Under the pieces are notes generated by a model that searched no databases, was not told the DNA's origin, and worked only from the letters and a program-made list of their open reading frames with translations. DNA of 13,857 nucleotides from Nitrospinae bacterium RIFCSPLOWO2_12_FULL_45_22 (GTDB taxonomy: Bacteria; 2-12-FULL-45-22): assembly GCA_001803565.1 (NCBI GenBank), contig MHDQ01000081.1, positions 1 through 13,857 of the forward strand. Reading direction: 5' to 3'. This document shows positions 128-13,857 of this stretch, in pieces (position 1 is the stretch's first letter; every line of letters starts with the position of its first letter). The translations under genes were made by a program, and so were the position numbers.

Positions 128-388
128 CAAAAATTTATTCCCTGGAAGGGTAAATTAGCGTATGGTAGATGGTTTTAGAAGAGTAGGAAAGTGGAGCGGT
201 GAAATTTTGAAAGGGATGATACTTGGTTGTAAAAATTTTTGGGAAACCTCCATTTCTAAAATTTCATTGACCTTACCCCCAGATAGGATTAAAATTAGTC
301 CCCTAACAATCCTTTCTTTTTTTGAGAAAGGCCGAAGGGGTATTAAGGGTAACCCTTGAATGGGACACAAAAACAAGGAGAACCGCAT
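128..388. other. Intergenic leader before the CoA-transferase
   Basis: I see no convincing gene in this stretch. A 65-codon frame at 162-359 has no ribosome binding site, and its C-terminal part looks like translated intergenic repeat. The stretch holds a promoter candidate at 267-295. Downstream of that are a T-rich hairpin (CCTTTC 311-316 with GAAAGG 326-331) and a small palindrome around AAGGGTAACCCTT at about 344-356. These lie in the presumed 5' untranslated region and could affect translation or transcript stability, but no known riboswitch is recognisable. Confidence 0.5.
267..295 (+). promoter_or_regulatory. Putative sigma-70 promoter for the CoA-transferase gene
   Basis: TTGACC at 267-272 is followed after exactly 17 bases by TAAAAT at 290-295. 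The predicted transcript start is near 302, giving a leader of about 87 bases. The match is good by eye, but no expression evidence is available. Confidence 0.5.
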
Positions 389-1630
389 ATGAGAAAAGAA
401 GAATTTTATAAAGAGGCTATACCTAATTCCCGCGGGCCGCTTGGAGGGATTAAGGTGCTGGAGGCCACTACTACCCAGGCTGGTCCAGTAGCAGGGGCTA
501 TCCTGGTAGACCTGGGTGCAGAGTCTATCAAGGTAGATGCCCCGGTAATGGGTGAACTGGGTCGGCATGTACCACCCCACCTGAATATTCCAAATAAACT
601 GGAGGCCAGTACGTATTATCTGACCCTTAACCGGGGTAAGAGGGGAATAACATTGACCCTCAATAAACCCGAAGGCCAGGAGGTCTTTCGGCAAATTGCG
701 GAGAAGATGGATGTTATTATCCAGAACTATAAGCCCGGAACTATGGAAAAGTGGGGCCTGGGATATGAAGATATTAGGAAAATTAATCCTAATATAGTTT
801 ATGTTTCTTTATCGGGCTATGGGCAATTTGGCCCTTATCAACACAAGCCCGGCTATGACCCGATAGGCCAGGCCATGAGCGGTTTCATGAGCATAACTGG
901 TTTCCCGGACGGCCCACCTATGAAGTCCGGTGGGGCCCTGGCAGATAATCTTACGGGCTGGCAGGGTGCTATGGGCGCCTTAGCAGCCCTCTATTACCGC
1001 GCTAAGACCGGCAGGGGCCAGCATGTAGAAAGCTCTCTGGTAGATGCTATGCTGGGGGTGAGTGACTGGGGGATCATGATGGCCGCTAATTTGGACCTAT
1101 TATGGGAGCGAAGAGGCAATGCCTATGGCCCGGTAGGGTTGGACCCGGTAGTAAAGTGCAAGGATGAGTATATCTGCCTATTAGTTGCCTTAGATAGCCA
1201 TTGGGCGAGGATGTGTAAGCTAATGGGCCGGGAAGACCTTATTGAAGACCCGCGGACCAAGAATTTAACCGCCCGGGCTGAACATGCTGACTTGATAAAT
1301 GGCGTCATTGGCGACTGGGCCAAAGAGAGAACCGCTGCTGAGGCAGTAAGAATCCTGGAAGAGGCCGATTTAGCCGTTGCACCTATCCTTAATTTTAAAC
1401 AGATATTAGAGGATAAGCATATTCAAGAAAGAGACATGATAGCAGAAGTGGAACACCCGGTGGCCGGCAAGCTAAAACTCTATGGCGTACCAACGAAATA
1501 CTCTCTGACCCCAGCCCACGTGAAAGGCCCTGCCCCTATGCTGGGACAGCATAATGAAGAGATTTATGGCGGTATGTTGAGATTCGATAAGAAGAAGATG
1601 GAAGAGTTAAAGGGCAAAGGGATAATATAA
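389..1630 (+). CDS. Class III (CaiB/BaiF family) CoA-transferase
   Basis: The product is a predicted cytoplasmic 413-residue enzyme that moves CoA from an acyl-CoA donor to a carboxylic acid through an aspartyl-CoA intermediate. Length and order of motifs fit the family: an N-terminal Rossmann-like part (GAILVDLGAESIKVDAP, about 36-52), NRGKRGITL (81-89), GYGQFGPY (143-150), and ALADNLTG (183-190). Asp186 in the last motif occupies the position of the nucleophilic aspartate (Asp169 of formyl-CoA transferase). The start at 389 is preferred over an in-frame ATG 33 bases upstream because AAGGAG lies 8 bases before it. The gene converges on the reductase/dehydratase cluster. Class III transferases (FldA, HadA) accompany 2-hydroxyacyl-CoA dehydratases, and others act in anaerobic aromatic degradation, so it may supply the CoA thioester for the neighbouring enzymes. 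The substrate is unknown, and a racemase-type activity cannot be fully excluded. Confidence 0.9.
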   Translation: MRKEEFYKEAIPNSRGPLGGIKVLEATTTQAGPVAGAILVDLGAESIKVDAPVMGELGRHVPPHLNIPNKLEASTYYLTLNRGKRGITLTLNKPEGQEVFRQIAEKMDVIIQNYKPGTMEKWGLGYEDIRKINPNIVYVSLSGYGQFGPYQHKPGYDPIGQAMSGFMSITGFPDGPPMKSGGALADNLTGWQGAMGALAALYYRAKTGRGQHVESSLVDAMLGVSDWGIMMAANLDLLWERRGNAYGPVGLDPVVKCKDEYICLLVALDSHWARMCKLMGREDLIEDPRTKNLTARAEHADLINGVIGDWAKERTAAEAVRILEEADLAVAPILNFKQILEDKHIQERDMIAEVEHPVAGKLKLYGVPTKYSLTPAHVKGPAPMLGQHNEEIYGGMLRFDKKKMEELKGKGII

Positions 1631-1778: not shown

Positions 1779-2621
1779 TTAGCCTTGTGCAGCCTTTTTC
1801 CTGGCCCGCTCCAGGGCAAATAAGGCGGCACCCATGGCCCCAGCGATCTGGGGCTCGGGCGGGATACTAGCTTTGAGCCCGGCCTTCTCCTCTACCTTGC
1901 TCAATACCCCAACATTCTTACCAATACCACCAGTAACGACAAACTTCTCTTCGATCCCTACCCGCTTCAAGAGAGCTATGACCCGGCTGGAGATGGCATC
2001 ATGCAGGCCGGCCAAGATATCCGCCTTGGACGTCCCTTTCTTCAGCAAGGCCATTGCCTCTGATTTGGCAAATACGGCACAGATGGTATTAAAGGGGATC
2101 TTCTGGGTAGACTCCAGGGAGATCGGCCCGATCTTGTTCAGCGGAAGCTGTAAGATATCGGCAATGATCTCCATAAATCTCCCGGTGCCACCGGCGCACT
2201 TATCATTCATGATAAAATTGGTCACATTACCCTTCTCATCTACCCGAATACCCTTGCAGTCCTGTCCACCCATGTCCAGGATAGTTGCTACCCCGGGGAC
2301 AAAGCGGTATGCCCCTTTGGCATGGCAGGATATCTCGGTAATATTGGCATGGGCAAAGGGTACTATTACCCGGCCATAACCGGTCGCCACGATATAGGCT
2401 ATATCCTCTATCTTTATATGGTCAGTCTTGACATCAGGGAGCTCCATCCGATACTCACCCCAGAGCTCCGAGCGCCTATGGATCGCACAATCAAAGGCCG
2501 CATAGGCCGTCTTGGCGCTCTCTGGCCCGGTCTCTATGTTGCTATAGGTGATAAGCTCCCCATCATCACAAATGACACACTGGGCACTGCGGGAGCCAAT
2601 GTCTATTCCTGCGGTTAGCAT
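1779..2621 (-). CDS. ATPase/activator subunit Q, BcrA/BzdQ-like (BadF/BadG/BcrA/BcrD family)
   Basis: This 280-residue ASKHA-fold ATPase is predicted to hydrolyse ATP while passing a low-potential electron to the [4Fe-4S] catalytic subunits. The phosphate-binding loop is AGIDIGSRSAQ (4-14), the second nucleotide loop is ILDMGGQD (114-121), and VVTGGIGKN (228-236) is the adenosine motif. Cys142 (NDKCAGGTG) and Cys181 (TICAVFAKSE) are 39 residues apart, the same spacing as the cluster ligands Cys127 and Cys166 of HgdC. The sequence around DMGGQDCKGIR and VTNFIMNDKCA resembles BcrA/BzdQ more than HgdC. An extra stretch at about 45-70 (WGEYRMELPD) is absent from the partner ATPase. AGGAGG lies 9 bases before the ATG. 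It is last in the minus-strand cluster, 210 bases after the P gene. A homodimeric HgdC-type activator is the alternative. Confidence 0.88.
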   Translation of the reverse strand: MLTAGIDIGSRSAQCVICDDGELITYSNIETGPESAKTAYAAFDCAIHRRSELWGEYRMELPDVKTDHIKIEDIAYIVATGYGRVIVPFAHANITEISCHAKGAYRFVPGVATILDMGGQDCKGIRVDEKGNVTNFIMNDKCAGGTGRFMEIIADILQLPLNKIGPISLESTQKIPFNTICAVFAKSEAMALLKKGTSKADILAGLHDAISSRVIALLKRVGIEEKFVVTGGIGKNVGVLSKVEEKAGLKASIPPEPQIAGAMGAALFALERARKKAAQG

Positions 2622-2643
2622 CCTTTATTTCCTCCTCTTAACC

Positions 2644-2670
2644 TGATAATGTTACATTTTCTGATAGCAA
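2644..2670 (-). promoter_or_regulatory. Conserved leader block upstream of the Q gene
   Basis: Read on the minus strand, this 27-base block (TTGCTATCAG...TTATCA) matches the block at 3657-3683 upstream of the P gene at 22 of 27 positions. Both lie a short distance upstream of an AAGAGGAGG ribosome binding site. It may be a shared regulatory element or the relic of a duplicated leader. Its function is not known. Confidence 0.4.
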
Positions 2671-2681
2671 CGCCTCTAAAC

Positions 2682-2804
2682 AAATCCTAAATCTTAAGCA
2701 CGAAGCTCTAAACAATATCGAAATCCTAATCCCAAATCCCAAAACTATTTATGTTTCTATATTTTGAATTTTGGTCATTTGAAATTGTTTAGGATTTAGG
2801 ATTT
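2682..2804. repeat. AT-rich fold-back repeat between the P and Q genes
   Basis: The ends are inverted repeats: AAATCCTAAAT at 2682-2692 and ATTTAGGATTT at 2794-2804. An inner pair is TAAACAAT (2709-2716) with ATTGTTTA (2784-2791). The right arm contains TTTTGAATTTTGGTCATTTG, typical of a widespread class of intergenic palindromic repeats. A diverged relative lies at 3694-3825. There is no coding content. Confidence 0.65.
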
Positions 2805-2831
2805 CGAATTTATGGTTTATATTGATAATGA

Positions 2832-3611
2832 TTAGCCGGCCAACTGCTGGGCAATGATGGCCGCCCCTAAGGCCCCTACTATCTGTGGGTCCTCAGGTAT
2901 CAATGCCTTATGCCCTAACTTCTCCTCTATGGCCCGCACTATCCCTAAATTCTTACTTACCCCACCCGTCAGCACTACCTCGGGCACGACTCCGATCCGC
3001 TGGGTCATACCAAAGAGCCGATCCACTATGGACTCGTGGATACCCGCCAGGATATCTTCCTTCGGGGTGGGGGGGTCCCGATGGACATGGCTGATTACCT
3101 CAGACTCAGCAAAGATGACGCACATGCTGCTGATAGATGCCTTGGACTTGTGCTTTAAAGATACAGGACCCATCTCCTCTACCGGTACCCGCATCATCTT
3201 GCTCATAGCATGCAGGAATACCCCCGTACCAGCCGCACATTTATCATTGCCTACACTATCCTCTATCTTACCATCGGCACCGAGCTTTATCACCGTGGAA
3301 GACTCGGCCCCGATATCTATCACGGTACGGGCCGATGGAAAGAGCCAGTATGCCCCTTTGGCATGACAGCTCATGGAGGTACGCTGTTTCTGGGCAAAAG
3401 AGATCCCCTTACGGCCAGTACCGGTAGAGAGCACCAGCTTCAAGTCCTCTAGCTTCAAGCCCGCCCTGGCTAATGCCTCATCCATGGCGTGCCTGGCCTC
3501 TATCTCGCCTACCTCCCCACTGACCCTTGTGGCACTACTCAAGACCTTGTCACCTTCAAGAATCACCACCTTGGTAGACAAAGCCCCCATATCAATACCT
3601 GCTACCGCCAT
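2832..3611 (-). CDS. ATPase/activator subunit P, BcrD/BzdP- or HgdC-like (BadF/BadG/BcrA/BcrD family)
   Basis: This 259-residue ASKHA ATPase is the likely partner of the following Q subunit. Motifs: AGIDMGALSTK (4-14, phosphate loop), TVIDIGAESS (96-105), NDKCAAGTG with Cys125 (122-130), SSMCVIFAESE with Cys164 (161-171), and VVLTGGVSKN (212-221). Cys125 and Cys164 are 39 residues apart and should provide half of the [4Fe-4S] cluster that bridges the ATPase dimer. An upstream in-frame start at 3695 would add 28 residues with no family match; the start at 3611 is chosen because AGGAGG lies about 10 bases upstream and MAVAGIDMG is the usual family N-terminus. The length is close to HgdC (about 260), so a free homodimeric activator is possible. 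The side-by-side pair of unlike ATPases favours the class I benzoyl-CoA reductase arrangement. Confidence 0.88.
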   Translation of the reverse strand: MAVAGIDMGALSTKVVILEGDKVLSSATRVSGEVGEIEARHAMDEALARAGLKLEDLKLVLSTGTGRKGISFAQKQRTSMSCHAKGAYWLFPSARTVIDIGAESSTVIKLGADGKIEDSVGNDKCAAGTGVFLHAMSKMMRVPVEEMGPVSLKHKSKASISSMCVIFAESEVISHVHRDPPTPKEDILAGIHESIVDRLFGMTQRIGVVPEVVLTGGVSKNLGIVRAIEEKLGHKALIPEDPQIVGALGAAIIAQQLAG

Positions 3612-3651
3612 ACCTAATTCCCTCCTCTTACTAAAGTTTATACCCTTATTA

Positions 3652-3664
3652 CATTGTGACAATG
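3652..3664. promoter_or_regulatory. Palindrome CATTGTGACAATG upstream of the P gene
   Basis: This is a perfect 13-base palindrome with a single central base, placed just downstream of a weak promoter candidate (3668-3695, minus strand) and therefore near its predicted transcript start. It could be an operator. No matching site is seen before the Q gene, where the equivalent block is partly degenerate. Confidence 0.3.
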
Positions 3665-3683
3665 CTATATTTACTGATAACAA
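3657..3683 (-). promoter_or_regulatory. Conserved leader block upstream of the P gene
   Basis: On the minus strand this reads TTGTTATCAG...TTGTCA and matches the block at 2644-2670 at 22 of 27 positions. It overlaps the promoter candidate and the 13-base palindrome. The two ATPase genes themselves are far more diverged, so the block is either conserved for regulation or belongs to a larger repeat. Confidence 0.4.
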
Positions 3684-3695
3684 ACGGGCAGTCAA
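3668..3695 (-). promoter_or_regulatory. Weak promoter candidate for the P-Q genes
   Basis: On the minus strand TTGACT (3690-3695) is followed after 16 bases by TAAATA (3668-3673). The -35 lies at the very end of the fold-back repeat 3694-3825, so the repeat may have contributed part of the promoter. A start near 3660 would leave about a 50-base leader. Confidence 0.3.
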
Positions 3696-3825
3696 ATTCT
3701 AAATCCTAAGCACAAAATCCTAAACAATATCAAAATCGTAAATCCAAATCTCAAAACAAGTTTGACTGTTTTGAATTTTGGTTATTTGGATTTGTTTAGG
3801 TGGTAGCATTTTAAATTTAGAATTT
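3694..3825. repeat. AT-rich fold-back repeat between the orphan N gene and the P gene
   Basis: The ends are inverted: AAATTCTAAAT at 3694-3704 and ATTTAGAATTT at 3815-3825. The interior carries paired TAAACAA / TTGTTTA and CAAAAC / GTTTTG tracts. It is a diverged sibling of the repeat at 2682-2804 and sits at the matching place upstream of the other ATPase gene. It has no coding content. Confidence 0.65.
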
Positions 3826-3837
3826 TACTTTGTCAAA

Positions 3838-4980
3838 TTATTTACCTACCTTCATCATCTCTAAAAATGCCTCTACCCGGGTCCTTATCTGACCAATACC
3901 ACCCATTCCATATTCCAGGTCGAGCTCTAATACAGGAATTCCGGCGTCCTCCAATTTCTGTTTCATGACCGGTTTGTCATGGCCATAGACATCACAAAAC
4001 TTAATTATCTCATAAATCACCCCTTCCACCTTGAACTCGTTAATCAACCCCATGACAAAATCCATTCGCATAGAGAAAGGTCGCATGCGGGCACATGGTG
4101 GGTGGTTGAGATAGCGTTTAGCCAGGGCTTCGATAGGTTCTAATGTGGTATCGGTCAGATTCCACCAGAACCTGGTGCCAGTACAGAGCTCATCGGTGAC
4201 AACAATTGCCCCCAGGCTCTCTATGGCATTGATAAACTCTGGCCGGTCCAGTATGCTGCCAACAACCATTAATCTTGGCCGGTCGCCATTGGATAGCGCC
4301 TGACGCTGAGGCAGCTCAGCCAAAAGCCTTTCTAATTGCGAATTGAACTCTGCCCGCGGCATACGCATACTCGCCTGGATAATCTCCATGGTCTCCGTCC
4401 CACTGATCAAAGGCCCACCTGATTTCCTGAAGTCATATAATTTTCTGAAAAGTTCCCGGCTCTTATTATAGAGCTTTATGGTCTCCCTAAGCTTATCCGT
4501 AGTAATATCTACCTGGAAAAATTCCTCTAATTCTTGCTTTAAATGCCGAAGCTGTTGGGCAAAAAATTCTTCTGCCTCGGGGGTAATTTTGTGGGGGACA
4601 CTGACGATATGCCTAAATGGGGTTTGTAGATAGTTATTCCAGACATCAAATAGTCGCCTGATAGGGTCACAACTGGTCCCAGAGACAACTCCATCTAGAA
4701 AATCATAATCCTTTCTCAGGGCAAGCTCGAGACAACCCCGGGCAAAGGTACAGGTATTGGCATACAGATAAGCATCGGCCTCAGTGATATCTTCTGCCTT
4801 AGCCCCGGTAACTCTTATCGGGAGCATACCCCCAGCCTCGATGATTTCTTCGGGGATGTAAGTACATATCCAGCCAACAACCTTTTTCCCCTGGGCCTTC
4901 CAGGCCTGGATAGCCTTACTCTGGGGGAAGGGAGAGCTGGCTTCCTTCAATTCTTCCAATACCTTTAGAGATTGCTCCAT
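3838..4980 (-). CDS. Orphan N-type catalytic subunit, BcrC/BzdN-like (2-hydroxyacyl-CoA dehydratase subunit D family)
   Basis: This 380-residue [4Fe-4S] subunit is a third paralogue of the N subunits at 6547 and 9633. Family marks, numbered from the ATG: GWICTYIPEE (36-45), NTCTFARG with Cys77, TSCDPIRR with Cys104, DELCTGTRFWW (263-273), PPCAR (295-299), IIKFCDVYGHDKP with Cys329, and LELDLEYGMGGIGQ (351-364). Cys77, Cys104 and Cys329 have about the spacing of the three cluster ligands in 2-hydroxyacyl-CoA dehydratases. A GTG one codon upstream could also be the start; the ATG is preferred because AAGGAG lies 8 bases before it and it aligns with the start of the 6547 paralogue. No O-type partner gene follows; the next genes are the P and Q ATPases. 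The order N-P-Q is the bzdNOPQ order with O missing. It may borrow an O subunit or work alone. Confidence 0.88.
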   Translation of the reverse strand: MEQSLKVLEELKEASSPFPQSKAIQAWKAQGKKVVGWICTYIPEEIIEAGGMLPIRVTGAKAEDITEADAYLYANTCTFARGCLELALRKDYDFLDGVVSGTSCDPIRRLFDVWNNYLQTPFRHIVSVPHKITPEAEEFFAQQLRHLKQELEEFFQVDITTDKLRETIKLYNKSRELFRKLYDFRKSGGPLISGTETMEIIQASMRMPRAEFNSQLERLLAELPQRQALSNGDRPRLMVVGSILDRPEFINAIESLGAIVVTDELCTGTRFWWNLTDTTLEPIEALAKRYLNHPPCARMRPFSMRMDFVMGLINEFKVEGVIYEIIKFCDVYGHDKPVMKQKLEDAGIPVLELDLEYGMGGIGQIRTRVEAFLEMMKVGK

Positions 4981-4995
4981 CACCTCTGCTCCTTA

Positions 4996-5014
4996 TACTC
5001 AAGTTGTACTCAAG
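4996..5014. repeat. Tandem TACTCAAG boxes before the orphan N gene
   Basis: TACTCAAG occurs at 4996-5003 and again at 5007-5014, 11 bases apart, about one helical turn. The pair lies just upstream of the ribosome binding site of the orphan N gene. It could be a direct-repeat binding site or chance. Confidence 0.25.
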
Positions 5015-5034
5015 CCAAGTTATTTAAATTAATT

Positions 5035-5248
5035 GTAACCGTTCACCCGGCTAAGCTTTATCAGCCACCAAGACACGAAGGCACCAAGAGATGCGATCAT
5101 TTATCCGGTGTATGACATACGCTGCATGCCCTATGCAGAGCAAGCTCTGCCACTACAGCCTACAAAAAAGTTTGTACCTGCCTGCCGCAGGCAGGCTCGA
5201 CTCCCTTCATGCCTTGGTGACTTAGTGTCTTGGTGGCTGAACGGTTAC
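5035..5248. mobile_element. MITE-like fold-back element, copy 2 (complete, with target duplication)
   Basis: This is a complete 214-base non-coding element. Its ends GTAACCGTTCA (5035-5045) and TGAACGGTTAC (5238-5248) are perfect inverted repeats. AATTAATT stands directly on both sides (5027-5034 and 5249-5256), which reads as an 8-base target duplication. Longer imperfect inverted arms (CAGCCACCAAGACAC / GTGTCTTGGTGGCTG) follow the termini. Compared with copies 1 and 3, one internal hairpin (GTCGAGC..GCTCGAC preceded by TAGTG) is replaced by CCTGCCTGCCGCAGGCAGG. There is no transposase, so movement would need one in trans. The right target duplication supplies the TAA stop of the O gene that ends at 5251. 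Confidence 0.82.
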
Positions 5249-5250
5249 AA

Positions 5251-6525
5251 TTAATTTCGTACGCCGATTCCCTTTTTTTCCTCCATCCTCTCAAAAAATT
5301 CCTCTAGTTTACCTTTAACCTCTTCGGTAGAGGTGAAAGACTTGTCTACCAGGTCACAATCTATCACTGCTACTGGCAGGTCCAGTTTGTCCTGGAGTTC
5401 ATCCTTTACTGCCCGGATGCAGGCACAGGCCTGCCGGCAGCCGATATGGGCAAAGAACACAGCTCCATCCACCCGGTATTCCTGAGCAGATTTTACCATA
5501 CTCTCTATAAAAGGTTCCATAGGGCCATGCAGTTGGTAGCAAGCAGGGTGGACAAAGGTCTTTCGGGCCAGGTTTTCTACTGGCTTATTCGGATTTTTCA
5601 GCCAGTAAGGATCATGTCCCCAGGCATTAAGGATATCTGCTACTATAACTGCCCCGTGCTCTTCTTGCATCCAATCCATAATACTCATATCCCAAAATGG
5701 TATCACAAAAGGGAGTATTAGGCGATATCGTTCTTCGGGTAGTACCCCTATCCCTTTATCTACCCTCTCTTTCACCTCGTCCCGCATCTGCTCATAAAAA
5801 GTCACTGCTTCCGCTGTACCGGCCATGAGCCACATGACCGCTACCTGGGCAAAGAGGCCCTCACAGGGAAAAGGCTCAGGTACTGCTTTGCGTAATTCAT
5901 TGAGCTCCAGACAAAGCTCAGTAACTCTATAAGACCGGGCTACTATTTCCTTAAGCCGATCATAATCCATCTTACGCCCAGTTTGCTCCTCAAGAAACTG
6001 TATCAAGCCCTCATATTCTTCGGTATAATAGGCCAAGCTCAGGTCATCATAGACATAAGGCCGATCCAAAAAATAACCGGGAGAGCCATACATCTCGGCC
6101 ATACCCTCACCACTCTTAGGGGTATTATCGCAGGCCTGGGAAGAGAAGACAAAGAAGTCTGGCTTAGGGAAGGCCTGGGCTAAGACCATGGCATCGGTGA
6201 CCCGGTGGGCCGAACAGATCTCCGGTGGAAAGCCTACCTGGGCTGCTAATTCCAGATACTCTTTCAGGTCGCCAAAGAAATTGTTATACAGCGCATAGGC
6301 CTCAATATGCAAAGGGACAATATCCATGGCATAGAATAGTTCGATGGGGCACATGACAGTATGACCGACCAGGAATTTGCCCTGTTCTTTGGCACTAATG
6401 ACCCGCTCATAATACTTAATTACTAAATCGAGATATGGGAGAACAGATCTGAAGCTGGAATCTTTATATAACTCCTTAACCCCTTCTAATTTATTTATTA
6501 GCTCTTGCATAGTAGGGTTTCTCAT
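5251..6525 (-). CDS. O-type catalytic subunit 1, BcrB/BzdO-like (2-hydroxyacyl-CoA dehydratase family)
   Basis: This 424-residue partner of the N subunit is encoded just upstream (21-base gap). Family marks: GHTVMCPIELFYAM (54-67), PPEICSAHR with Cys104, QACDNTPKSGE with Cys132, QFLEEQTGRKMDYDRL (176-191), HIGCRQACAC with Cys363, Cys367 and Cys369 (360-369), and VIDCD (387-391). Cys104, Cys132 and Cys363 are spaced like the cluster ligands of HadB (84, 117, 346). The length matches BcrB/BzdO (about 48 kDa) rather than the shorter dehydratase subunits. AGGAGG lies 8 bases before the ATG. The function would be substrate reduction or dehydration with electrons from the ATPases. The stop codon lies inside the target duplication of the MITE-like element, which separates it from the orphan N gene. 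Confidence 0.9.
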   Translation of the reverse strand: MRNPTMQELINKLEGVKELYKDSSFRSVLPYLDLVIKYYERVISAKEQGKFLVGHTVMCPIELFYAMDIVPLHIEAYALYNNFFGDLKEYLELAAQVGFPPEICSAHRVTDAMVLAQAFPKPDFFVFSSQACDNTPKSGEGMAEMYGSPGYFLDRPYVYDDLSLAYYTEEYEGLIQFLEEQTGRKMDYDRLKEIVARSYRVTELCLELNELRKAVPEPFPCEGLFAQVAVMWLMAGTAEAVTFYEQMRDEVKERVDKGIGVLPEERYRLILPFVIPFWDMSIMDWMQEEHGAVIVADILNAWGHDPYWLKNPNKPVENLARKTFVHPACYQLHGPMEPFIESMVKSAQEYRVDGAVFFAHIGCRQACACIRAVKDELQDKLDLPVAVIDCDLVDKSFTSTEEVKGKLEEFFERMEEKKGIGVRN

Positions 6526-6546
6526 GCCTTTATCCTCCTAACAATT

Positions 6547-7695
6547 CTAGAAATGTTTAGTCTGGAGCATCTCTACGAAGGCCTCGGCCCGGGTTCTTAC
6601 CTGACCAGTACCGCCTTGACCATACTCCAGGTCCAGCTCTAAGACCGGTATGTCCCGTTTCTCTAGCCTCTCTTTCAGTAGGGGTTTATCATGCCCATAA
6701 GGGACACAGTAGCGCACAATCTCGGAGACAACCCCATGTACCTTAAACTGATCCAGCATATCAAAGATATGACTAAAGCGACGTTCAGAGGGCTGGAAGC
6801 GGGCACAGGGTGGCCGATTTAAATAGTAGCGGGCCAGGGCCTCCATAGGTGGTAAATCAGTATCTACCATGTTCCAGAAGTAGCGGGTGCCAGTACATAA
6901 CTCATCAGTTACCACTACGGCATCCAGGTCCTCAATGGCCTTGATCCATTCAGAATTGTGGAGGATACTACCCAGGATCATCAGTCTTACTCTTTTGTTT
7001 ATCTGGCGATCAGTATGCTCTAGCTCATTCACCAATCTCTCTAATATTTTATTGTATTGCTCCCGGGGGATACGCATAGCGGCCTTGACCACTTCCAGGG
7101 TCTCTGCACCAGTTATTGGGGGATTATTCCTCTTTCTAAATTCATATAGGCTGTGCAAAAGCTCCCTACTCCTGTTATAGACACTGATAGCATGACGTAG
7201 GGCCTCGTCACTAACTTCTTTCCCCACAAACTCTCCTAATTTTCCCTTTAACTCCTCCAGTTGAGCCCGGTAGAATTGGTGTGCCCGCTCAGTCCATTTT
7301 CTGGGGATATAGAAGATATGGGTGAAGGAGTTATTGTTGCCGTAGCGGAGCCATACATCATGGAGTCTCCGGGCACCATCACAGGTCTCAGCCGTCACTA
7401 AGCCCTCCAGGAAGTCGTATTGTCCTTCTATGGCTAATTGGAAGCCAGTACGGGCAAAAGAACAGGTGTTGATATAGAGGTAGGCCTCAGCCTTTTTTAG
7501 CTCCAGTTCTTCATTGTCGCCACTGACCCTGAAAGGAAGCACCCCGGCGGCATAGAGAATTTCTTCGGGGACGTAGATGCAGACATAACCTATAACCTTT
7601 CTTCCTGGCTTCTGCCATTCCTTGATAGCAGTATTTTTCGGGAAAGGCGTAGCCAGGTTTTTCAATTCTGTCAATGCCTCTAAGGAATTATCCAT
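6547..7695 (-). CDS. N-type catalytic subunit 1, BcrC/BzdN-like (2-hydroxyacyl-CoA dehydratase subunit D family)
   Basis: This 382-residue [4Fe-4S] subunit has predicted cluster ligands Cys78 (NTCSFAR), Cys105 (ETCDGARR) and Cys330 (VRYCVPYGHDKP). Other family marks are YVCIYVPEE (37-45), DELCTGTRYFW (264-274), PPCARF (295-300) and LELDLEYGQGGTGQ (352-365). The ATG overlaps the end of the TetR gene by 8 bases, and GGGAGG lies 5 to 6 bases upstream of it, inside the TetR gene. TetR, N and O therefore form one transcription unit. It resembles the N subunit at 9633 and the orphan at 3838, with all six family cysteines kept in each. Whether the dimer is an aryl-CoA reductase or a 2-hydroxyacyl-CoA dehydratase cannot be settled here; the BcrB-like partner and the BcrA-like ATPase lean toward the reductase branch. 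Confidence 0.9.
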   Translation of the reverse strand: MDNSLEALTELKNLATPFPKNTAIKEWQKPGRKVIGYVCIYVPEEILYAAGVLPFRVSGDNEELELKKAEAYLYINTCSFARTGFQLAIEGQYDFLEGLVTAETCDGARRLHDVWLRYGNNNSFTHIFYIPRKWTERAHQFYRAQLEELKGKLGEFVGKEVSDEALRHAISVYNRSRELLHSLYEFRKRNNPPITGAETLEVVKAAMRIPREQYNKILERLVNELEHTDRQINKRVRLMILGSILHNSEWIKAIEDLDAVVVTDELCTGTRYFWNMVDTDLPPMEALARYYLNRPPCARFQPSERRFSHIFDMLDQFKVHGVVSEIVRYCVPYGHDKPLLKERLEKRDIPVLELDLEYGQGGTGQVRTRAEAFVEMLQTKHF

Positions 7696-8329
7696 TTGAA
7701 CCTCCCTTTACGCTGATACCTTCTAAGATGAACCTATTAAGGATGCTCACCAGGTCATTTAAAATAACCTGGTTGCGATTTAAGAGCCACTGGAGGAGGA
7801 TACCTTGCCAGGCACCTATCAGGGTTACAGCCAGAAGTCGAGAGTCAATATCAGTCCTTATGCTACCAGCTCGCTTGCCTTCTTCCACTATCTCAGACAC
7901 AGATGAGAAAAATTCGTCAAAGGCATCCTTTAATACCCTTTCGAATTTTTCATCTACCTCGGTAAACTCAGCAATCAACACAATAAAGATAACGAACTGG
8001 TCTTTATTTTTGAGGGTCAGCTCCATAAAGATATCTAGCATCTTAATCAGCTTCTCTAGGGCTCCTCCTTCTTTACCGATTTCCTTAATTATTAAGCTAT
8101 TCCATAGGGCCTTTACCTCCCTCACTACCTCGCAAAAGATGGCTTCTTTACTCTCGAAATGACAATAGAAGGCCCCTTTAGTCATCCGGGCCGATTCAGC
8201 TATTTGGGAGATAGTGGTGTTATGGAAGCCATTTTTGGCAAAGAGGCTCACCGCGGCTTCCAGTATCTCCTGTTTAGTCCTTTCTCCCTTCAGGTCCCAG
8301 GTATTTTTTACTGAATATGGGGTCTCCAT
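7688..8329 (-). CDS. TetR/AcrR family transcriptional regulator 1
   Basis: This 213-residue one-component repressor has an N-terminal TetR helix-turn-helix (about 18-63), including FAKNGFHNTTISQIAESARMTKGAFYCHF-type residues with recognition helix near 47-56, and an all-helical ligand domain. The ligand domain shares long blocks with the regulator at 10796, for instance VIFIVLIAEFTEVDE and GILLQWLLNRN, so the two are paralogues. It heads a TetR-N-O unit, overlaps the N gene by 8 bases, and starts 35 bases after the stop of the preceding O gene. AAAGGA stands only about 4 bases before the ATG. It likely represses its own unit and may sense an acyl-CoA, as some TetR regulators of acyl-CoA metabolism do; the ligand is inference. 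Confidence 0.9.
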   Translation of the reverse strand: METPYSVKNTWDLKGERTKQEILEAAVSLFAKNGFHNTTISQIAESARMTKGAFYCHFESKEAIFCEVVREVKALWNSLIIKEIGKEGGALEKLIKMLDIFMELTLKNKDQFVIFIVLIAEFTEVDEKFERVLKDAFDEFFSSVSEIVEEGKRAGSIRTDIDSRLLAVTLIGAWQGILLQWLLNRNQVILNDLVSILNRFILEGISVKGGSNG

Positions 8330-8359
8330 TTTCCTTTACTGACACTAATTACTTACACT

Positions 8360-8376
8360 GATACTTACTTAGTATC
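8360..8376. promoter_or_regulatory. Candidate TetR operator before regulator 1
   Basis: GATACTTACTTAGTATC is a palindrome with 14 of 17 positions symmetric. Its half sites ATACT and AGTAT are the same as those of the site before regulator 2, but with a 5-base instead of 8-base centre. It overlaps the TAA of the upstream O gene and lies 31 bases before the regulator ATG. No strong promoter is seen nearby. Confidence 0.4.
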
Positions 8377-9636
8377 TTCTAGCATCTCGAAGAACCCTTC
8401 CAATTTCCCTCGCATCTCTTCCCCTGGGCTTAAGGAGGGATCAATGATGTCGCAATCGAGGGCGATCATGGGGATGCCGACATCATCTTTTAAGGCATCT
8501 TTCATACTACGGATGAGGGCGCATGCCTGGCGGCAACCAATATGGGCAAAATATATGGACCCATCAGCCTTATAGTCTATAGCCGCCTGCACAGCATCCT
8601 CAATAATACCTTCTGAAGGCCCATGCATCTGCCGGACCAGGGAACGGTAAAAAGACTTCTCAGCAATGCTTTCTAACGGCTTAGCGGGGTCCATATCCCC
8701 CTTTGCCCACCAGGAGCAGTATGGTTCCATAACACTTACCGCACCATACTCCTGCTCCATCCAATCCATCAGCTTCCACTCGTAAGAAGGGGGCAAGAAG
8801 AGGGTCAGGATACGGAACCTCTCTTCCGGAATACCACCTACACCTTTGTCTACCCGCTCCTTAATCTCGTCCCGTACCAGTTCAAAATATTCTACCGCTT
8901 CTTGAGTACCGGCATAGAGCCATTCAACTACCATCGAGTTAAGGAAGCAGCGATTGCGGGCTGGGGCCGGGATATTCCGCCTTAATTCGGCTATCTCTCG
9001 ATACAGCTCAGTGACCCGCTGGGAGCGGGCAACTGCCTCGCTTAACCTATCATAATCCATCTTTTGACCGGTCTGTTCTTCTAAAAATTGAACAAGCCTC
9101 TTCAATTCTTTAGTAAAATATTCTACTTCTCTGGTGGTATAGCGGTAAGGGCGATCCAGAAAGATACCGGGAATCTCATAGAGGTCCAGGATAGCATCCC
9201 CACTCTTGGAGGTATTGTCACAGACCTGATTGGTCCAGACAATAAAATCTGGCCGGGGCAATGAATTCTGAATCACGGTAGCTGCCAGCAGACGGTGGGC
9301 AGAACAGGTCTCCGGTGTCAGGCCGAAGCTACGGGCAGCATCAAAGAACTCGGCATAGTTACCGAGCAAGATGGCCATCATCATGGAGGTGGATTCTAGA
9401 TGCATGGGTACTATGCCCATACCATAAAAGACCTCCAGGGGCGACATGACTGTATGCCCTACTATGGTCCTTTCTTGTTCAACTGCCTCCATGATCCTAC
9501 GGTAGTATTTAACCATCAGCTCGTAGTATAACTCTTCACTGGCATAAGTAGGGTTCTTATGCCTATGGGCCAGGATATTCTCCAAAATCTTTACCATTTG
9601 TTGAATTCTAGGTTTAGCCAGAGTCGCTACCGTCAT
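8365..9636 (-). CDS. O-type catalytic subunit 2, BcrB/BzdO-like (2-hydroxyacyl-CoA dehydratase family)
   Basis: This 423-residue paralogue of the O subunit at 5251 keeps the same motif order: GHTVMSPLEVFYGM (60-73), TPETCSAHR with Cys111, NQVCDNTSKSGD with Cys139, QFLEEQTGQKMDYDRL (183-198), HIGCRQACA with Cys368 and Cys372, and ALDCD (392-396). The proposed cluster ligands Cys111, Cys139 and Cys368 are all present. Ser65 replaces the cysteine found at residue 59 of the other O subunit, and the third cysteine of HIGCRQACAC is also missing. The start codon overlaps the stop of the N gene by 4 bases (ATGA), a sign of translational coupling and of a 1:1 complex. GGGAGGGA lies about 6 bases upstream. 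It probably forms a dimer with the N product at 9633. Confidence 0.9.
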   Translation of the reverse strand: MTVATLAKPRIQQMVKILENILAHRHKNPTYASEELYYELMVKYYRRIMEAVEQERTIVGHTVMSPLEVFYGMGIVPMHLESTSMMMAILLGNYAEFFDAARSFGLTPETCSAHRLLAATVIQNSLPRPDFIVWTNQVCDNTSKSGDAILDLYEIPGIFLDRPYRYTTREVEYFTKELKRLVQFLEEQTGQKMDYDRLSEAVARSQRVTELYREIAELRRNIPAPARNRCFLNSMVVEWLYAGTQEAVEYFELVRDEIKERVDKGVGGIPEERFRILTLFLPPSYEWKLMDWMEQEYGAVSVMEPYCSWWAKGDMDPAKPLESIAEKSFYRSLVRQMHGPSEGIIEDAVQAAIDYKADGSIYFAHIGCRQACALIRSMKDALKDDVGIPMIALDCDIIDPSLSPGEEMRGKLEGFFEMLEDTK

Positions 9637-10784
9637 CTTGCTTCCCTCCCTTGTAACATTTCTAAAAATGCCTCTACCCTCGTCTTTATCTGACCAGTCT
9701 CTCCCATACCATATTCTACATCTAACTCCAGGACCGGGACCCCTATTTGGTTCAATCTTTCCCTCAGCAAGGGCTCGTCATGGGCATAAGGGACACAATA
9801 CCTAATTATCTCGGTCACGGCGCCTTGTACCCGATATTCTTTAATCATATTAAGGACATGCTCTAGCCGGACATCCCAGGGGTTCATCCGGGCACAGGGG
9901 GTATTATCCAGGTAGCGCCGGGCGATAGCCGCCAGGGGGTCTACTTTATTGTTTTCCACCAGGCGCCAGAAATAACGGGTACCGGTGCATAGCTCATCAA
10001 TAACTACTATACTACCGGCCTTTTCTACGGCCTGGATAAACTCGTGATTATTAAGGATGCTGCCATTTATCATTAAGCGGGGTCGAGGACCGGGCAAGGC
10101 CACTCTCCCTTTTAACTCTTGCAGCAATTGTCGCAATAAGTCATTGAACTGGGGCTTAGGCATGCGGTAGCTGGCATTAGTTATCTCTAAAGCCTCTGCC
10201 CCGCTAATGGGTGGGTTGTCTACTTTTCGAAGCGCATAGAGCTGATGCAATAGCTGCCGGGTTTCATTACATACCTGGATGGCTTCTTTCAGGCCCTGGT
10301 CAGTAATCTTGATACCAGCAAATTTCTCCAAATGTCCCTTAAACTCTTCTACCTCCTCCCGGTAGAGCTGGTGGGCATCCTCAGTAAATTTCCTGGGGAC
10401 ACTAAGGATATGGAGGAAAGGGGTGGGTATATAGTTTTTCCAGACGTCAAAGAGGCGCCTGGAACCATCACAGGTAGCTCCGGCTGCCAGCCCGTCTAAG
10501 TAGTCATACTGTTTCCGCAAGGCCAGATCCAAACAAGAGCGGGCAAAAGAACAGGTGTTAATATACAGGTAAGCATTAGCCTGTTCTAACTCCAATTCCC
10601 GGTTTATACCGCCCATCCTGATAGGGAGTATCCCTGCGGCCATTATCACTTCTTCCGGCACATAAGTACAGACCCAGGCAACAACCTTCTTCCCTTCCTT
10701 TTTCCAATCCAGGATGGCCCTGGACTGAGGAAAGTCATTACATAAATCCTTTATCTTAGCCATAGATTCTGGTACTGCTGTCAT
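9633..10784 (-). CDS. N-type catalytic subunit 2, BcrC/BzdN-like (2-hydroxyacyl-CoA dehydratase subunit D family)
   Basis: This 383-residue [4Fe-4S] subunit carries the motifs WVCTYVPEE (37-45), NTCSFARS with Cys78, ATCDGSRR with Cys105, DELCTGTRYFW (263-273), TPCARM (295-300), IIRYCVPYAHDEP with Cys330, and LELDVEYGMGETGQ (352-365). Cys78, Cys105 and Cys330 are the predicted cluster ligands. It follows the second TetR gene after 11 bases and overlaps the O gene by 4 bases, so TetR-N-O is one operon with the same plan as the unit at 8329-5251. GGGAGG precedes the ATG by about 7 bases. Together with the O product at 8365 it should form a catalytic heterodimer that relies on the distant P/Q ATPases, since no ATPase gene is found closer. 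Confidence 0.9.
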   Translation of the reverse strand: MTAVPESMAKIKDLCNDFPQSRAILDWKKEGKKVVAWVCTYVPEEVIMAAGILPIRMGGINRELELEQANAYLYINTCSFARSCLDLALRKQYDYLDGLAAGATCDGSRRLFDVWKNYIPTPFLHILSVPRKFTEDAHQLYREEVEEFKGHLEKFAGIKITDQGLKEAIQVCNETRQLLHQLYALRKVDNPPISGAEALEITNASYRMPKPQFNDLLRQLLQELKGRVALPGPRPRLMINGSILNNHEFIQAVEKAGSIVVIDELCTGTRYFWRLVENNKVDPLAAIARRYLDNTPCARMNPWDVRLEHVLNMIKEYRVQGAVTEIIRYCVPYAHDEPLLRERLNQIGVPVLELDVEYGMGETGQIKTRVEAFLEMLQGREAR

Positions 10785-10795
10785 AACGTCCCTCC

Positions 10796-11431
10796 CTAAT
10801 TTTTTGCTATAATCCTCTCCCTTTTGAGAGAAGGAGCCAATCCATCAAACACCATAGAGCGCAAGCAATTTACCAGGCTCTCCAACCTTACCTCGTTGCG
10901 GTTGAGGAGCCATTGTAGTAATATCCCTTGCCATACCCCCATAAAGGCTATAGCCATTAAATTAGTGTTAATATCTTTATGGATACTCCCCTCGCTTTTA
11001 CCATCATCGATTATCTGGGCGATAAACTCAAAGAATTCCATAAAACCCTCTCTGAGGGCGCGCTCAAATCTCTCATCTACCTCAGTAAATTCCGCTATTA
11101 AGACGATAAATATTACGTATCTCTCTTTATTTTCTAAAGTTGTTTCTACAAAGAGATCCAGGATATTCTCCATCTTTTTTTGAGCACTCCAGTTCCTCTT
11201 GAGATTTTTCCGCAAGACATCTTTCCATTCCTGCCTTACCTGATCTATAACGGCCATAAGGAGGTCTTCTTTATCCTCAAAGTGCCAATAAAGAGCCCCT
11301 TTACTCAGTTGGCACATCTCAGTAATCTGGGCAATAGAGGTGTTATGGAACCCATTCTTGGCAAAGAGAGAAATGGCCGCCTTGATGATGGTGGCCTTGG
11401 TCTTCTCGCTCTGTATGTCTTTCTTATTCAT
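10796..11431 (-). CDS. TetR/AcrR family transcriptional regulator 2
   Basis: This 211-residue TetR repressor is paralogous to the regulator at 7688. The helix-turn-helix covers about 8-54 (SLFAKNGFHN 21-30, recognition region QLSKGALYWHF 41-51). The ligand domain contains VIFIVLIAEFTEVDERFERA and GVWQGILLQWLLNRN. An in-frame ATG 21 bases upstream (11452) is rejected: it falls about 8 bases after the predicted transcript start and has no ribosome binding site, whereas the ATG at 11431 has AAAGGGA about 11 bases upstream. The gene heads the second TetR-N-O operon and ends 11 bases before the N gene. A strong promoter overlapped by a palindrome points to autorepression. The ligand is unknown; an acyl-CoA of the pathway is a reasonable guess. 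Confidence 0.9.
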   Translation of the reverse strand: MNKKDIQSEKTKATIIKAAISLFAKNGFHNTSIAQITEMCQLSKGALYWHFEDKEDLLMAVIDQVRQEWKDVLRKNLKRNWSAQKKMENILDLFVETTLENKERYVIFIVLIAEFTEVDERFERALREGFMEFFEFIAQIIDDGKSEGSIHKDINTNLMAIAFMGVWQGILLQWLLNRNEVRLESLVNCLRSMVFDGLAPSLKRERIIAKN

Positions 11432-11450
11432 GGGTGGGTATATCCCTTTC

Positions 11451-11468
11451 ATACTAAACGGTCAGTAT
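11451..11468. promoter_or_regulatory. Candidate TetR operator before regulator 2
   Basis: ATACTAAACGGTCAGTAT is an 18-base inverted repeat with 14 symmetric positions and perfect ATACT/AGTAT arms. It covers the predicted transcript start and touches the -10 box of the promoter at 11467-11495, the place where a TetR repressor would block RNA polymerase. The size and the ACCG/CGGT-type core fit TetR family operators. Confidence 0.6.
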
Positions 11469-11495
11469 TTTAGCTAACCGGGTAAAAAAAGTCAA
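11467..11495 (-). promoter_or_regulatory. Sigma-70 promoter of the TetR2-N-O operon
   Basis: On the minus strand TTGACT (11490-11495) is followed after exactly 17 bases by TAAAAT (11467-11472). The predicted start is near 11460, giving a leader of about 29 bases to the ATG at 11431. It is the clearest promoter on the minus strand and may drive the whole N-O cluster if transcription reads through. Confidence 0.65.
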
Positions 11496-11525: not shown

Positions 11526-11780
11526 AAAAAGGGGCATCCTGCAAAAGTAGTTAACAATTTGAAAGAGCAAAATATTTTGTAACAGTTCAGGTTCTTTGTC
11601 ATTTCGAGTGCAGCGAGAAATCTTTCCGAGACCGGAGGTAAATAAAGATTCCTCCCTTCTCACTCCTTACGATGTACGTATCTCTGTGATCTCTGCGTGC
11701 TCTGTGGCAAATTAGTAAAATTATTTTATTGACGAAAAGTGTTAACTACTTTTGGCCGAAGTGAAGGATGCCCCCTTTTC
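11526..11780. repeat. Nested fold-back element next to the tRNA gene
   Basis: The outer arms are AAAGGGGCATCCT..GCAAAAGTAGTTAAC (11528-11555) and GTTAACTACTTTTG..GGATGCCCCCTTTT (11741-11780); the right arm has about 10 extra bases. Inside is a second inverted pair, GAGTGCAGCGAGAAATCTTT (about 11607-11626) with AAAGATTCCTCCCTTCTCACTC, typical of widespread intergenic repeats. GTAACAGTTCA at about 11579 resembles the end of the MITE-like family. There is no credible ORF. Together with 11453-11525, which holds only the promoter and A-rich DNA, this fills the gap between the TetR gene and the tRNA. Confidence 0.6.
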
Positions 11781-13577: not shown

Positions 13578-13646
13578 GTAACAGTACAGCCAACTAAAGT
13601 CTTGACTACCCAGAGAAATTCAGGAGTCAGAATACAGAATTCAGAT
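13578..13646. other. Intergenic stretch with a possible detached repeat end
   Basis: GTAACAGTACAGCC at 13578-13591 resembles the end of the MITE-like family (GTAACCGTTCAGCC). About 55 bases of unrelated sequence then follow, including CAGGAGTCAGAATACAGAAT, before the family resumes with CAGCCACCAAGG at 13647. The stretch may be an insertion inside copy 3, or the terminus may be a chance match. Confidence 0.3.
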
Positions 13647-13845
13647 CAGCCACCAAGGCACTAAGTCACCAAGGCATGAAGAGAGTCGAGCAAGCTCGAC
13701 CACTACAAACTTTTTTGTAGGCTGTAGTGGCAGAGCTTGCTCTGCATAAGGCATGCAGCGTATGTCATACACCGGATAAATGATCGTATCTGTTGGTGCC
13801 TTCGTGTCTTTGTGGCTGATAAAGCATAGCCTCGTGAACGGTTAC
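13647..13845 (-). mobile_element. MITE-like fold-back repeat, copy 3 (inverted orientation)
   Basis: As the reverse complement, this matches copies 1 and 2 almost throughout, including the CATACGCTGCATGCC hairpin, the GCAGAGC and GTCGAGC hairpins, the ATCATTTATCCGGTGTATGAC block and the terminus GTGAACGGTTAC at 13834-13845. Its internal hairpins agree with copy 1 rather than copy 2. No target duplication is evident. With copy 1 it brackets the window in inverted orientation. Confidence 0.8.
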
Positions 13846-13857
13846 TATTTTACTATC

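Follow-up and report, generated by a model that had tools for sequence, protein, structure and literature searches.

Can one pair of electron-activating ATPases serve several catalytic dimers of an acyl-coenzyme A (CoA) reductase? This question is raised by a gene block on contig MHDQ01000081.1 of the fragmented metagenome-assembled genome (MAG) of Nitrospinae bacterium RIFCSPLOWO2_12_FULL_45_22 (3.67 Mb, 85% complete), which we analyzed over its full length of 13,857 nucleotides (the window; coordinates are window positions unless a stretch is named). The block comprises nine open reading frames, all of them intact and on the minus strand, in the order TetR1-N1-O1-TetR2-N2-O2-N3-P-Q. This is the arrangement described in the original prediction, which was made from the letters of the window, and Pfam agrees with it: five HGD-D (PF06050) proteins (E 6e-65 to 8e-104), two BcrAD_BadFG ATPases (1e-53 and 3e-59) and two TetR-family regulators were recognized, with E-values so low that chance is excluded. 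At very low potential, class I aryl-CoA reductases carry out a biological Birch reduction; to our knowledge, each system described so far combines a single N-O pair and a P-Q of its own.

The reading that we prefer, and hold with moderate confidence, is that the block specifies acyl-CoA reductases that are driven by ATP and are of the same kind as class I benzoyl-CoA reductase, N3-P-Q being a separable engine for N1-O1, N2-O2 and probably, through N3, for O subunits encoded alone elsewhere. Ferredoxin would reduce the [4Fe-4S] cluster that bridges P and Q in the ATPase dimer; hydrolysis of ATP would drive the electrons into N, where a predicted [8Fe-9S] double cubane would store them, and from there they would pass to the [4Fe-4S] cluster of O, at which the CoA-thioester substrate would be reduced. 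This path is drawn from what is known of BzdNO and of dehydratase activators (PMC11971306, PMC8473912). The two TetR-controlled N-O cassettes would provide differing O active sites. Both the sharing of the engine in trans and the kind of substrate are what we infer from the evidence below, in which other contigs of the host genome are designated C, stretches compared are designated L, and G001 is a relative genome (68% complete; stretches L088, L089, L091 and L092).

Cluster ligands and phylogeny of the N and O subunits

BzdN binds its [8Fe-9S] cluster through Cys36/73/100/263/293/327, and BzdO binds a [4Fe-4S]-OH2 cluster through Cys95/128/380 and uses Glu65 and His131 as acid/base pair (PMC11971306). 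We adopted this numbering; the published numbers were confirmed on the right letters in our alignments and the columns were then tabulated. All six double-cubane cysteines are kept in N1 (C39/78/105/266/297/330), N2 and N3, and the set is complete in 24 of 26 full-length N proteins of the host genome, while HadC and MbdN lack it. The clusters of N1 to N3 are predicted to be [8Fe-9S] double cubanes; the original prediction, correct in counting five HGD-D proteins, had regarded all five as simple [4Fe-4S] subunits, which does not hold for N. O1 and O2 keep the three cluster cysteines and Glu65, and in both the benzoyl-pocket residues His131 and Trp46 are replaced by Thr and Met. Six cysteines in N, three cysteines plus Glu65 in O and the altered pocket residues together point to class I reductase-type machinery with a different pocket.

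No window protein attains any Bzd, Bcr, Had or double-cubane cluster protein (DCCP) equivalog cut-off of NCBIfam (BzdN model 183-215 bits versus 453.8; BzdO 78-83 versus 448.6; BzdQ 261 versus 380), and the positive controls, a real BzdNO (L119) and the real DCCP of the host genome (C93, L041), pass. In quick trees (support figures carry the star of the source), window N proteins fall inside a clade of their own with six rows (98*), N3 being basal, and window O proteins inside one with nine rows (98*). N2 and O2 are each sister to the same G001 pair (L089), and O1 groups with the lone O genes of C289, C248 and C38 (94). BzdN/BzdO, HadB/HadC, MbdN/MbdO and DCCP are all located outside these clades, HadC on a long branch. 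By their sequences, the window subunits are best classified as class I benzoyl-CoA-reductase-like, yet as a separate clade. A plain BzdNOPQ identity is ruled out by equivalog cut-offs, trees and pocket residues.

That the N genes encode DCCP homodimers acting on small molecules, with the O genes being incidental, is very improbable. The six ligands are kept and double_cubane (NF040772) is indeed the best NCBIfam model for N1 to N3 (245-274 bits), but all three miss its cut-off of 350, whereas the true DCCP of C93 reaches 474 bits and is the sole companion of the solved DCCP in the tree (100*); moreover, N and O co-diverge (see below). With C93 serving as positive control, DCCP identity was rejected on both score and tree position, and window N stands apart from the group whose membership the original prediction had named as a result that would speak against it.

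Catalytic subunits outnumber activators

Both bridging-cluster cysteines are present in P (motifs NDKCAAGTG and SSMCVIFAESE) and in Q (invariant positions 142 and 181). In the tree, Q sits with Q partners from N-O-P-Q operons (100/99*) and P joins the stand-alone P of L084 and L085 (97/90*). These stretches belong to two uncultured Deltaproteobacteria MAGs with 21 and 12 HGD-D matches, respectively; in each, a P-Q pair occurs with no N or O nearby, its P being 59-60% identical to window P.

The host genome contains 67 HGD-D matches, of which we assign 35 to O and 32 to N (a few probably represent the two halves of a gene split between contigs), and ten PF01869 matches corresponding to about eight genes: P and Q, a second pair P' and Q', the lone activators of C15, C51 and C249, and one long fused protein on C225. 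With 67 HGD-D matches against about eight activator genes, activators must act in trans, and with approximately four O genes per activator gene, all activators counted, sharing is needed somewhere. At first look, HGD-D counts among 386 genomes sampled around the host (listed in full for genomes with a strong match) were 68 for the host and 31 for G001, followed by 23, 20, 18, 12 and at most 4. No report of shared activators or of a family expansion in the HGD-D family was found in the literature searched.

P' appears to be C178 joined to C153, as each of these contigs ends in a half of it that complements the other. Together they correspond to the O-N-P-Q operon of G001 (L088) and represent a second O-N-P-Q set, and the window P/Q is therefore not the only pair of the genome. 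The earlier claim of a single pair stands for the contig, both ends of which are repeat copies, but fails genome-wide because of this set and the three lone activators. Additional P/Q genes for each N/O pair were looked for and none were found. The claim that several catalytic dimers are served per activator gains support from the numbers given above, from the stand-alone P/Q of the two MAGs and from the N2-O2 orthologue of G001 (L089), beside which no P/Q is present within the 20-kb stretch examined.

On C15 (L078), genes for an O, an activator, an O and an N adjoin that of a glycyl-radical (PFL-like) enzyme; the G001 counterpart (L091) keeps N-O-activator. This HGD-D system is of another kind.

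The N and O of adjacent pairs co-diverge (20 pairs, Mantel r 0.74, 0/9999 permutations), indicating that the dimers are specific. At least ten O genes of the host genome are without N neighbour and five N genes without O, so that lone O outnumber lone N. No hidden N or O fragments were found beside the lone genes, with only 232-504 bp examinable for four of them at contig ends. Most clades of lone O have a counterpart among the clades with a lone N: the window clade contains the lone O of C38, C248, C289 and C302, and N3 as lone N; elsewhere, C21 and C88 go with C147, C19 with C314, and C153 and the C178 second O with C216. That N3-P-Q lacks an O while four lone O belong to the same clade suggests that N3-P-Q feeds several O. 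The third N, originally counted as a third dimer, is better read as a member of an N-P-Q block. More tentatively, the arrangement might be of the hub-and-spoke type, with N3-P-Q as electron-delivery module common to these four stand-alone, substrate-specific O subunits in separate degradation cassettes, and with some family members using a selenocysteine cluster ligand.

Several observations weigh against a shared engine. For the hub, N3 is equally distant from N1 and N2, and there is no shared operator. Most catalytic genes are far from any activator and have no physical or regulatory tie to P/Q, and the palindrome of the TetR1 promoter is absent elsewhere in the host contigs searched (477 kb). 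The activators of C51, C249, C178/C153, C15 and C225 could also be the server of many pairs, and the genome is a fragmented MAG. As His131 and Trp46 are missing from the window O, benzoyl-CoA itself is an unlikely substrate, and sequence does not determine which reaction is catalyzed. AlphaFold models from window sequences alone were poor (mean predicted local distance difference test score 56 for O1 and 45 for N3) and were not used as evidence.

As a competing explanation, P/Q might be confined to its neighbouring genes, or to N3 and one O, the rest using other activators and the proximity of the TetR-N-O cassettes being accidental. O2 is set apart from N3 by a repeat element, the N3/P and P/Q gaps hold further repeats, the genome contains at least four other activator systems, and the G001 orthologue of N2-O2 has no P/Q within its 20-kb stretch. 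We nevertheless regard this as rather unlikely, since even with every activator included the excess of O genes calls for sharing somewhere.

Genomic context and likely substrates

A member of the window O clade is found on C69 (L076). There, N (partial)-O precedes an OYE and UbiD; the OYE is NCR-like, with 2-naphthoyl-CoA reductase (6qkg, 381 bits) as its best relative among solved structures. PHP, MaoC, SDR and thiolase come later on this strand, and the whole resembles a cluster for degrading aromatic or polycyclic acids that employs a window-clade O. Lone O genes of the window clade neighbour a CoA ligase (C38), a hydratase and SDR (C289), and a hydratase and CoA-transferase (C248). In the naphthalene pathway as described, OYE-type reductases are followed by a type I ATP-dependent reductase, with neighbouring genes (PMC13365417). 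These contexts and this pathway together favour reduction of a ring or conjugated acyl-CoA over dehydration, and the window enzymes probably reduce aryl-CoA or another stabilised-ring acyl-CoA.

Of the two functions originally proposed, reductase or dehydratase, the first is thus retained and the second has become less likely. As (R)-2-hydroxyacyl-CoA dehydratases of the HadBC/HgdAB kind, the N-O pairs would be activated by P/Q and recycle one electron. They belong to the same superfamily, HadB likewise keeps Glu65 and the three O cysteines, O1 scores higher with the HadB model than with the BzdO model (100 versus 83 bits), and the locus on C169 adjoins a D-2-hydroxyacid dehydrogenase and a CoA-transferase. 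However, the double-cubane ligands retained by N1 to N3 are lost in HadC, HadB and HadC belong to other clades, and on C69 the same O clade is accompanied by an NCR-like OYE and UbiD, which makes a dehydratase function unlikely.

If about 35 catalytic subunits share about eight engines, the costly ATP-driven step would be a shared utility, and substrate range would evolve through added O (and N-O) modules. The lineage would then possess a library of exchangeable low-potential reductases, which suggests that refractory CoA-activated substrates of many kinds are used in anoxic settings.

Predicted selenocysteine codons at cluster ligands

Elsewhere in the family, reading through stops revealed a single in-frame TGA in each of four genes, namely the O of C53, of C148 and of C231 and an N of G001 (Table 1); window genes carry none of this kind. 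The C53 and C148 O proteins are 58% identical and have the TGA site in common. SelB and tRNA-Sec were found in both genomes, and a hairpin follows each of the four TGAs with mixed z-scores (-1.1, -0.1, -2.7, -2.6). TGA is otherwise an ordinary stop in the host, ending 49 of 249 long open reading frames. The chance that four random stops all hit ligand codons is about 6e-9 by a simple estimate. Selenocysteine ligands are therefore predicted for the catalytic [4Fe-4S] cluster (O) and the double cubane (N); if true, they would be a new way to tune these clusters. Queried with the C53 O across the 386 genomes, the UGA form of O was found only in the host genome. No report of selenocysteine in the HGD-D family was found in the literature searched, although one elsewhere is possible. 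A YqeC-family gene on C19 (L064), a family which we take to be linked to selenium metabolism, is located beside a lone O related to the C53 and C148 proteins.

Structure of the locus

TetR1-N1-O1-TetR2-N2-O2 is tightly packed (gaps of -8 to 35 bp), and cassettes 1 and 2, each with its own TetR gene, are predicted to be separately regulated. Spacing is looser in the 3' part (O2/N3 267 bp, N3/P 142-226 bp, P/Q 210 bp), where the gaps contain dispersed palindromic repeats; the true start of P is probably the ATG near 3611. Pairwise identities are about 51% among N1, N2 and N3, 46% between O1 and O2, and 48% between TetR1 and TetR2. The CoA-transferase convergent with Q has a paralogue near the O of C248 and adjoining the O of C88. 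On the far side of the block from it lies a tRNA-Pro, and next on that side are presumably pcm-like and surE-like genes, named from reading the sequence with no database search.

The element between O2 and N3 (about 230 bp) has further window copies at 1-136 and 13646-13849, the two contig ends, and six long and about 60 partial matches genome-wide. A second, AT-rich palindromic repeat occurs in the P/Q gap (2644-2812), in the N3/P gap (3657-3819) and in C163.

TetR1 is preceded by a promoter-like TTGACT-17-TAAAAT (11495-11467), and imperfect palindromes at 11453-11495 (one near 11453-11480) extend across its -10 and start region and are likely an autoregulatory operator. As operator common to other loci, the palindrome ACTAAACGGTCAGT was rejected, as it has no second exact copy in the 477 kb. 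An 85-bp element upstream of both TetR1 and the C148 N was likewise rejected as common control site, because it proved to be a repeat dispersed in about 20 copies. The region 11570-11665 upstream of TetR1 is a dispersed hairpin repeat with about 20 near-full copies; it also precedes the N genes of C148 and C96.

Table 1. Features of the window and related loci
Feature	Position	Strand	Evidence
TetR1, TetR-family regulator heading the tight N-O-N-O run	10796..11452	-	PF00440 E 9e-16
N1, double-cubane-type (BzdN-like) subunit	9633..10784	-	HGD-D E 5e-101; nearest solved chain BzdN, 217 bits
O1, catalytic subunit (BzdO-like)	8365..9636	-	HGD-D E 5e-65; 4 bp overlap with N1
TetR2, TetR-family regulator	7688..8329	-	PF00440 E 3e-17; 8 bp overlap with N2
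N2, double-cubane-type subunit	6547..7695	-	HGD-D E 6e-97; six Cys; sister of G001 L089 N, 67% identity
O2, catalytic subunit	5251..6525	-	HGD-D E 6e-65; sister of G001 L089 O, 100*
Palindromic repeat (miniature inverted-repeat transposable element-like) between N2-O2 and N3-P-Q	5015..5268	.	Inverted arms 33 nt 88%, 23 nt 96%
N3, orphan double-cubane-type subunit without own O	3838..4983	-	HGD-D E 8e-104; six Cys
P, BadF/BcrAD-type activator ATPase	2832..3695	-	PF01869 E 1e-53
Q, BzdQ-like activator ATPase	1779..2621	-	PF01869 E 3e-59; TIGR03192 261 bits, cut-off 380 not reached
Class III CoA-transferase, convergent neighbour of Q	356..1630	+	PF02515 E 2e-114
C69 locus	L076:2840-12880	-	
DCCP gene of C93	L041:736-2031	-	
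YqeC-family gene of C19	L064:10438-11214	-	
Stand-alone P-Q pair	L084:5948-7582	+	
Stand-alone P-Q pair	L085:570-2282	+	
O gene with in-frame TGA, host genome	L048:6642-7889	+	TGA at BzdO Cys95
O gene with in-frame TGA, host genome	L049:3047-4339	-	TGA at BzdO Cys95
O gene with in-frame TGA, host genome	L061:5211-6518	+	TGA at BzdO Cys95
N gene with in-frame TGA, G001	L092:6527-7780	+	TGA at BzdN Cys100

Comparison with known systems

The closest likeness is to BzdNOPQ (PDB 8s02), with which the window shares an N, an O and two BadF-type ATPases, the six N cysteines, and the three O cysteines plus Glu65 (PMC11971306). In contrast to BzdNOPQ, the window N and O form their own clade, score below the Bzd cut-offs and lack His131 and Trp46, and the host has two TetR-N-O cassettes and an orphan N per P/Q as well as lone O genes elsewhere. 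MbdNOPQ, the 3-methylbenzoyl-CoA reductase (9g87, 9gai), has the same N-O-P-Q composition and its MbdQ resembles window Q (228 bits), but MbdN lacks three of the six cysteines and the enzyme belongs to another clade in both trees. With HadBC/HadI and HgdAB/HgdC the window shares superfamily, activator fold and the logic of electron activation (PMC8473912); HadC lacks the six-cysteine set, the clades differ, and the activator is a homodimer as opposed to the heterodimeric P/Q predicted here. DCCP and its activase (6eno, 7yyl) have the six-cysteine site and ATPase-driven reduction in common with the window, but DCCP is a homodimer without O, and window N is below its cut-off and in another clade. 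In the naphthalene degraders N47 and NaphS2, a type I aryl-CoA reductase occurs beside type III (OYE) reductases (PMC13365417), and C69 likewise combines N-O with an NCR-like OYE and UbiD, although this likeness, one of gene content as described, concerns C69 and not the window locus.

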